From Bacteroidales bacterium (GTDB taxonomy: Bacteria; Bacteroidota; Bacteroidia; Bacteroidales; GCA-2748055): a stretch of 64,000 nucleotides of DNA. Location: assembly GCA_029210725.1 (NCBI GenBank), contig JARGFM010000005.1, forward strand, positions 1 through 64,000. The letters are read 5' to 3'. Numbering within the stretch: position 1 is the stretch's first letter; each line of letters begins with the position of its first letter. Below are positions 56,172 to 57,920 of this stretch, piece after piece. Under the pieces are notes generated by a model. It did not search any database. It had not been told where the DNA came from and was given only the letters and a program-made list of their open reading frames with translations. Made by a program: the position numbers and the translations under genes.

Positions 56172-57920
56172 ATGCAAATGGAGAAGTTTATTGTTTCGGC
56201 CAGAAAGTACAGGCCTGCAAGTTTTGATGATGTGGTGGGTCAGCCCTCTATCACAGGAACGCTCAGGAATTCTGTAATCAATGAGCACCTGGGTCATGCC
56301 TATCTTTTCAGCGGTCCGCGCGGGGTAGGAAAGACAACCTGCGCCCGGATTTTTGCCAAAACCATTAACTGCGGAAATATTTCTGAGCGAGGTGAAGCGT
56401 GCAACCAGTGTGAATCGTGCATCTCCTTTAATGAGAATCGTTCCTACAGCATTCATGAACTGGATGCAGCTTCCAATAATTCGGTGGATGATATCAGGAA
56501 CCTGACAGAGCAGGTGCGGATCCCACCACAAATTGGTCACTATAGTATCTATATCATTGATGAGGTACACATGCTTTCCCAGTCTGCATTTAATGCTTTT
56601 CTGAAAACGCTGGAAGAACCCCCTGCCCATGCTATTTTTGTTCTGGCCACCACGGAAAAGCATAAGATTATTCCGACCATCCTCTCGCGCTGCCAAATCT
56701 TCGATTTTAACCGGATCAGGGTCGAAGATGCGGTGGATTACCTGAAGCAGATTGCCGATAAAGAAGGTCTGGAGTACGAGGAGGATGCCCTGCATGTGAT
56801 TGCCCAAAAGGCAGATGGTGCCATGCGGGATGCACTCTCCATCTTTGACCAGGTTGTTAGTTTTTCCAGGGGGAGAATCACCTACCAGGATGTGATCAGT
56901 AATCTGAACATTCTGGATTCTGAGTACTTTTTCAAACTCACCTTTTTCCTGATTGATGGTGATGTGGCATCGGCCATGCTCTTGTTCAATGAAATTCTTA
57001 CCAAGGGCTTCGATGCCCGGAATTTTATCAATGGATATGCAGCACACCTGAGGGATCTGATGGTATGCAAGAATCCGGAGACTGTCCAGCTGCTGGAAGT
57101 TGGTGCCGGGATCAGGGAGAAATTCCTGACCCAATCCGAACAGGTCTCCTTATCTTTTCTTTATGAGGGACTGGAAATATGCAACCAGGCCGATATCCAG
57201 TTCAGAAGCAGCAGGAACCAGCGGCTGACTATTGAACTGGCACTGGTTAAGCTGGCCAACCTTTCCGGGGTTTCAAAAAAAAAAATAGTCACTGAAACTA
57301 AGCAGGAACCGAAACCTGCGCCTGAACCTGAAGTAAAGGAAGCCCCTGCACCTGAAGTAAAAGAGGCCCCTGCACCTCCTGATGCCCTGTCTGAGAATGG
57401 GATCAGCTCGATGGTCAGAACTTCAGGCATCTCCATTAAGGACAGCCTGAGGGGCTGGTCGCCAGGTTACCTGAAGTCGGAAAATGCAGATCAGGAAGCT
57501 GTTTCTGCTGAAACTGACGGGCAGGATTCAGGAACGGAGGAGCGTGCAAAAGAGGCGGATCCGGAAACCATCATACAGGCATGGAACGATTATGCCACCT
57601 CCATCCAGAAAAGCAAACCCCGTATATACAGCACCCTGATCCATCACAAACCCATTGTCAGTGGAGGAAGCACGGTCATGGTGCTGCTGAACAGTGAGGC
57701 ACAGCGGGATCATTTTGTAAAGAAGATCAGGTCAGAACTGGTGAAGCATATTCAGAAAACCACCGGTCTCCAGTCCCTGGATATTATTACTGAAGTGTCT
57801 GAAAACGAGGAAAATGGAAAAAAAATCTACACCGAACAGGATAAGATGGAATTTCTGCTTCAGAAAAACTCTGAACTGGCTAAGCTGAAATCCCGGTTTA
57901 ATCTGGATTTTGACGATTGA
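56172..57920 (+). CDS. dnaX: DNA polymerase III tau subunit with internal A11 slippery run
   Basis: Clamp-loader AAA+ protein of 582 residues. Walker [10 protein letters not shown] (48-56), zinc Cys 67, 77, 80, 83, Walker B IIDEVHML (128-135) and the SRC motif, then domain III up to about 365. At codons 368-371 (TCA AAA AAA AAA ATA) an A11 run is followed in both other frames by a stop within four codons. After it come a Pro/Ala linker with repeated EVKEAPAPE and a C-terminal domain with [18 protein letters not shown]. Full length corresponds to tau; a 371-374-residue product would be gamma-like. Confidence 0.95.
57275..57285 (+). other. A11 run in dnaX, candidate slippage site
   Basis: Eleven A between TTC and TAGTC at the domain III/linker boundary. 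Loss of one A puts TAG immediately after the third Lys codon; gain of one A (or a -1 ribosomal shift) gives Asn-Ser-His and then TGA. Similar A-runs cause transcriptional slippage in Thermus thermophilus dnaX. Confidence 0.8.

Follow-up and report, generated by a model that had tools for sequence, protein, structure and literature searches.

A probable programmed slippage site at the end of the DnaX clamp-loader core in a Bacteroidales bacterium and its relatives

Does a run of eleven adenines inside dnaX allow a Bacteroidales bacterium to make both tau and a shorter, gamma-like protein from the same gene? The run was found in a 64,000-nucleotide stretch of DNA (the window; positions 1 to 64,000 of contig JARGFM010000005.1 in assembly GCA_029210725.1), and an original prediction made from the sequence proposed that it serves programmed gamma production. 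Here, the gene, its run and the corresponding site in relatives were analyzed computationally. Recoding of some kind at the run appears almost certain, and the sequence comparisons make it very likely that the run is a built-in route to two proteins from one gene. More specifically, the A11 run of this dnaX is probably a programmed transcriptional slippage site from which a gamma-like short form would be made.

The A11 run and the end of the clamp-loader core

The product of the window gene is assigned to the DnaX gamma/tau family by two curated NCBIfam models that score above their cut-offs, NF011531 (PRK14971; 744 bits, cut-off 685) and TIGR02397 (434 bits, cut-off 250). Pfam matches comprise DNA_pol3_delta2 at residues 24-181, the ATPase lid at residues 189-234, and DNA_pol3_gamma3 (PF12169, domain III) at residues 245-368. 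Because the PF12169 match ends at residue 368 and the tract codes for residues 368-372, the run lies at the end of the clamp-loader core, which bears out its predicted placement between the end of domain III and the start of the linker. Further downstream, residues 471-562 matched PF11490 at 20.6 bits, which is below the curated cut-off of 26.3, and a profile of the tau C terminus that we built ourselves recovers the tau-only part in relatives. The coordinates of all these features are collected in the table.

Features of the window dnaX gene and its A11 run
Feature	Coordinates	Strand	Basis
dnaX, 582-aa tau in the DNA frame	56172..57920	+	ORF; NF011531 and TIGR02397 above cut-offs
Clamp-loader core, domains I-III, common to tau and the predicted gamma	56172..57274	+	Pfam
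A11 slippery tract (predicted)	57275..57285	+	Sequence; same place in family genes
TAG, immediate stop with A10 (371-aa product) or A13	57286..57288	+	Sequence
TGA, stop after Asn-Ser-His with A12 (374-aa product) or a -1 ribosomal shift	57293..57295	+	Sequence
Tau-only Pro/Ala linker and C-terminal domain	57286..57917	+	PF11490; tau C-terminal profile

In the frame of the core, the run reads TCA AAA AAA AAA ATA GTC and codes for Ser-Lys-Lys-Lys-Ile-Val. The tau half shares the DNA frame of the core, and the gene is a single ORF encoding 582 residues rather than two ORFs. The predicted coordinates, frame and product lengths (371-374 residues) proved correct by sequence, save for a possible start two codons later, and both predicted outcomes of a shift, an immediate TAG with one A fewer and Asn-Ser-His-TGA with one A more, were likewise confirmed. 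Residues are numbered here from the ATG at 56172; since the matches of relatives start at residue 2-3, the ATG at 56178 is a possible alternative start, with which the product lengths would be reduced by two. Lysine is encoded equally by AAG and AAA in this gene (19 codons each, those of the tract included).

In the mechanism that we propose, RNA polymerase would add or drop A's over the A11 run, giving rise to dnaX mRNAs of mixed length. Messages in the frame of tau would be translated into tau with its C-terminal domain, and those that are one A off would meet a stop within 0-3 codons, yielding a gamma-like clamp-loader core of 371-374 residues. That the slippage is on RNA rather than on the ribosome, how efficient it would be, and how stable and useful the short form would be are points that we infer.

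Runs of this length are rare in the genome. When both strands of the 3.81 Mb assembly were counted, the A11 run in dnaX was the only one, and there were 16 runs of at least ten A's (17 overlapping hits). The 15 other A10 runs comprised seven outside any stop-to-stop frame of at least 100 aa, four within sense-strand frames of at least 100 aa, some of which are doubtful, and four within antisense-strand frames only. Two runs elsewhere in this genome may be further slippage sites: a sense-strand A10 at residue 188 of a 410-aa stop-to-stop frame (L378), and a T10 within an 815-aa stop-to-stop frame (L368).

Conservation of the run and of the stops beside it

The nearest relatives were compared in a family set of 28 genomes, of which 23 cover the site (13 of 18 from the same genus and 10 of 10 from the rest of the family). 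The five same-genus genomes that do not cover it are G001, G007, G013, G014 and G016; the G001 contig (L022) starts within the dnaX linker, past the expected position of the tract, and the tract region is missing there. An unbroken run of A10-A13 directly follows the core in all 23 site-covering genes, which represent six genera, with A10 in nine, A11 in eleven, A12 in one and A13 in two. The alignment of relatives that had been suggested as a check thus found the run intact, not broken by synonymous changes. Within the genus, the codons that follow the run often read xCA-GTA-ACT-GAx or nearly so, a pattern that places TAA or TAG in one of the shifted frames and, for the majority of the genes, TGA in the other. 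Stops occur in both non-tau frames within five codons in 20 of the 23 family genes, the wider spacings being those of L017 (one frame at 12 codons) and of L040 and L042 (one frame at 8). Outside the tract and the stops, the linker is highly divergent among relatives.

To extend the comparison, an order sample of 119 genomes, about one per family, was used; 111 of these contained dnaX, and 110 genes were usable, L129 being cut before the site. A tract was defined as at least nine A's within 105 nt of the core end. By this definition 51 of the 110 genes have a tract (A9 in 6, A10 in 23, A11 in 17, A12 in 3 and A13 in 2) and 59 are tractless, which suggests that the device is dispensable in many lineages. 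L161 (the same record as L020) and L271, L272 and L290 (genomes already counted) were also left out of the order and pooled tallies.

The original prediction had called for scoring stops in both shifted frames among relatives, and this comparison gave a clear separation. Both non-tau frames stop within eight codons in 43 of 50 order genes with a tract (median, 4) compared with 2 of 59 tractless genes (median, 30 among 58); seven of the 50 lack such a pair. The stop distances of the 50 tract and 58 tractless genes differed with a Mann-Whitney P value of about 1e-15, which is not corrected for relatedness. At 500 random downstream positions of the same order tract genes, stops in both frames were found in 15%. 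In one tractless gene with tau in frame, that of G113, no stop appears in the two remaining frames for 17 and 63 codons.

The pooled set of 166 tract and 84 tractless genes was then broken down by run length. This set is nonrandom and includes near-duplicates (L180 and L282 are core-identical), and the order sample is the fairer of the two. Paired stops were present in 4 of 84 genes with A8 or less (4 of 77 with A3-A8), 10 of 17 with A9, 101 of 105 with A10, 33 of 36 with A11, and all 8 with A12-A13; for A10-A13 together, the count was 142 of 149. Judged from these sequences, paired stops appear to switch on with run length, a pattern that base composition would not easily give.

These comparisons bear on whether the run could be a functionless chance homopolymer, or merely a Lys-rich linker, in AT-rich DNA. 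The linkers are of low complexity, and the 59 tractless order genes would fit such an explanation; however, the A11 is unique in its genome, the run is present in 23 of 23 family genes, paired stops are coupled to runs of at least ten A's, and, as described below, 16 of the 51 order genes with a tract carry tau out of frame. The counts in the family, the comparison of stops and the genes with a displaced tau half led us to reject this explanation, which is scarcely credible. The earlier judgment that the site is hard to explain by chance is upheld by the unique A11 and by the recurrence of the tract and its nearby stops at the same place in relatives.

Beyond the order, 30 loci were retrieved from each of two further samples: the class sample (116 genomes with dnaX), of which 27 loci were used, and the phylum sample (107 genomes with dnaX), which supplied 26 new loci. 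A tract of at least nine A's was present in 54 of 79 loci on contigs of named genomes, including loci titled Pedobacter, Mucilaginibacter, Hymenobacter, Chitinophaga, Dyadobacter, Aquimarina and Flagellimonas. No tract was found in the Bacteroidaceae- and Prevotella-titled loci that we looked at. Most of a set of 15 tractless Bacteroidaceae- or Prevotella-like dnaX genes carry a short inverted repeat, GGGC-N3/4-GCCC, about 40 nt past the core end, which is approximately where other dnaX genes carry the A-run (loci examined: L166, L167 [imperfect], L170, L171, L182, L189, L190, L192, L198, L206, L207, L210, L214, L274 and L072). As the repeat is kept despite differing residues (GRSP, GLCP, GRRP, GHSP and GRKP), it may be an RNA hairpin.

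The frame of the tau half and the route of recoding

The frame of the tau half was assigned with a profile of the tau C terminus built from 143 genes, and agreement with the longest open frame was required. No tau frame was obtained by profile for L061, L020, L182, L191, L196, L285 and L327, and L112, L117, L165, L124 and L173 were dropped for a short frame or for a mismatch between the profile and the longest frame. Among the 51 order genes with a tract, tau lies in frame 0 in 32, in +2 in 10 and in +1 in 6, with 3 undecided. Each of the 16 out-of-frame genes has a zero-frame stop within 0-5 codons. Among the 59 tractless genes, tau is in frame in 57, out of frame in one (L157) and undecided in one (L124). 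The exception, L157 (G028), has no A-run near the core end, and its tau half is nevertheless in +1 by profile; another shift site, an assembly error or decay could account for this.

Out-of-frame genes were also found close to the window gene and far from it. In the family, 5 of 23 genes (L044-L047 and L020) have the tau half in another DNA frame. All four genomes of genus g6 (G024, G025, G026 and G027) have tau out of frame, three with A11 and one with A13; the core frame meets a stop 0-2 codons past the run, and the tau half lies in +2 in three of them and in +1 in G025. In G003 (A13), the contig ends after 65 codons, and tau is out of frame over that whole length. Out-of-frame tau was also seen in the wider sample: in three loci from records flagged as metagenome assemblies (Sunxiuqinia, Culturomica and Chryseobacterium gleum by title), in that of Cesiribacteraceae bacterium YIM B00369 (which carries no such flag), and in two single-contig genomes of the phylum sample, L314 (G307) and L324 (G342), both listed as 100% complete. 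A further 20 genes from outside the class were picked by hand with a bias toward short open frames, so no rate is drawn from them. Of these, 19 could be anchored, 15 with A9-A10 at or near the same spot and 4 without a run, and 9 of the 15 have tau in +2 as judged from the longest open frame alone. These nine genes, with short core frames, are L382-L390 (G306, G268, G293, G264, G310, G313, G327, G302 and G334); L391 and L392 have A10 with tau in frame and carry the family code f181, which is common to several of the nine.

A tree was calculated, with FastTree only, from the 136 tract genes whose core is complete. On this tree, arrangements with tau in and out of frame must have interchanged at least 18 times, eight of these changes being forced by well-supported branches. 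Genes whose core and tau half are in different DNA frames can yield tau only via slippage or frameshifting. A -1 ribosomal shift serves only one of the two out-of-frame arrangements, whereas both are served by transcripts that have gained or lost A's, and slippage is therefore favored. Transcriptional slippage is likely to be the main route of recoding.

The signals that accompany ribosomal frameshifting were also sought. SD-like 4-mers upstream of the run were at background level, in 16 of 149 tract genes compared with 142 of 1,490 control windows, and AGGA, GGAG and GAGG are absent from the 14 nt tested upstream of the window run. The window lacks A_AAA_AAG, the run in dnaX being followed by T (TCA AAA AAA AAA ATA). 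Folding of the 60 nt 3' of the tract gave a mean z of -0.36 in 149 genes, slightly stronger than the -0.13 to -0.19 of three control windows; downstream of the window run there is a weak fold (z, -1.44), and a search for a conserved downstream hairpin in the 149 tract genes found nothing clearly above background. An Rfam search of positions 56900-57700 returned two matches at E<=5, neither of them a frameshift element. Together, tau displaced in both directions and the lack of a clearly conserved hairpin and of an SD-like motif argue for slippage of RNA polymerase over frameshifting of the Escherichia coli type. The only tRNA-Lys found in the genome has the anticodon UUU (40 tRNA matches scanned; one not called by ARAGORN), so ribosomes could shift on A_AAA_AAA as well, and may do so to some extent at this run. 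According to PMC5009743, E. coli likewise has just one tRNA-Lys, and the presence of two Lys tRNAs may explain the use of slippage in Thermus. The finding of UUU alone does not help the slippage reading.

Programmed -1 frameshifting on A_AAA_AAA, in the style of E. coli dnaX, could in principle produce the short form by itself. The phase of the run (TCA AAA AAA AAA) suits it, as does the UUU tRNA-Lys; a shift would meet the TGA three codons on, and a change of frame by -1 would lead into tau in 10 of the 16 out-of-frame order genes. In the other six, however, tau lies where such a shift cannot reach, and the lack of A_AAA_AAG, of SD-like enrichment, of a clearly conserved hairpin and of an Rfam frameshift element weighs against it, as does the account in PMC5009743 that A_AAA_AAA is far less shift-prone than A_AAA_AAG in E. 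coli. Frameshifting as the principal mechanism is thus unlikely. The spread of run lengths from A9 to A13, and the differing tau frames of close relatives, would also fit a contingency tract at the DNA level, in which the run mutates often and cells alternate, by phase variation, between having and lacking tau. Such on/off switching would not need paired stops in both frames, and the "off" frame is accompanied by a conserved tau half in all four g6 genomes and in the two single-contig genomes. The dnaX gene encodes core subunits of the replication machinery, and tau is regarded as essential. A persistent off state is unlikely for this reason, and phase variation can be considered highly improbable. 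Lastly, errors in run length could mimic out-of-frame tau, given that many of the genomes look metagenome-assembled (many contigs), that poly(A) length is error-prone, and that run lengths from short reads may be off by one. Assembly errors would leave the tract and its stops untouched, though, and all four g6 genomes depart from the in-frame length, as do the two single-contig genomes L314 and L324; there is next to no likelihood that such errors explain the pattern.

Under the preferred reading, transcriptional slippage, many Bacteroidota dnaX genes could be frame-agnostic, making tau and gamma whatever the length of the run in DNA; we regard the arguments for and against this as evenly balanced. 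About ten A's would let the polymerase deliver all three frames, with stops flanking the run in both unwanted ones. If all frames are delivered, the length of the run could drift within A9-A13, with the tau half moving among the three frames between sister species. The genomic reading frame at this point would then be near neutral, and the length of the tract would set the tau:gamma ratio.

Relation to known dnaX genes and significance

The kind of site described here is already known, from Thermus dnaX and from the two-ORF dnaX genes of Antonov et al. (2013). In Thermus thermophilus, dnaX has an A9 run with transcriptional slippage and stops in both frames (Larsen et al. 2000, as described in PMC1088944 and PMC5009743). 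The window gene resembles it in having a coding-strand run of at least nine A's, tau in the DNA frame, and close stops in both other frames. The two differ in position, the window A11 being at the end of domain III, at residue 368 of 582 or about two thirds of the way, and the Thermus A9 about seven-eighths of the way through (PMC1088944). They differ also in that slippage, which by these accounts yields gamma from mRNAs of altered length, has been measured in Thermus and is predicted here.

Antonov et al. described 17 two-ORF dnaX genes from 12 genera in which tau needs recoding; poly(A) is present in 12 of the 17, with A10 in nine and A9, A8 and A7 in three Chlorobi (PMC3711429). A rule similar to ours, by which shifts in both directions point to a transcriptional origin, is used in that study. 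Relatives of the window gene, in g6 and elsewhere, resemble these genes in having poly(A) between the gamma and tau parts and tau out of frame, whereas the window gene itself has tau in frame. By the account in PMC3711429, all 17 genes are -1 at the DNA level; here, both directions as well as in-frame genes are found among close relatives. Our literature search did not find co-conservation of the run and the double stop across the phylum, and the nine A10 species of Antonov et al. may include Bacteroidota; neither did it find in print a repeated exchange of the tau frame in both directions among close relatives. Priority on some species may belong to that study.

The E. coli and Blochmannia genes offer further comparisons. 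Like E. coli dnaX, the window gene has tau in the DNA frame, would give two products (gamma being predicted here), and has its shift site in a poly(A)/Lys stretch after the clamp-loader core. At the E. coli site, as described in PMC3711429, A_AAA_AAG is preceded by an SD-like element and followed by a stem-loop; in contrast, A_AAA_AAG is absent from the window, and neither an SD-like motif nor a stem-loop is clearly conserved in the relatives tested. In Blochmannia dnaX, a frameshift in an A-tract is similarly thought to be corrected by transcriptional slippage, according to PMC3017870. There, however, the frameshift falls within the tau-only part, farther downstream than the site at which E. 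coli makes gamma. The genomes concerned are those of symbionts with reduced gene content, and the authors read the frameshift as a tolerated error and not as a two-product device. Gamma as a purpose-made subunit is described as having been controversial even in E. coli (PMC5009743).

The conservation of the tract and its paired stops amid a divergent linker, together with tau out of frame in relatives, supports the original prediction of programmed gamma production. A slippery run with two stops at the core end, recurring across lineages, is strong evolutionary evidence that a short DnaX has been selected for. Sister genes in and out of frame offer a natural experiment on slippage, and the tractless lineages are those in which gamma may be dispensable or made otherwise. 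For annotation, out-of-frame dnaX genes of this kind should not be taken for broken genes.
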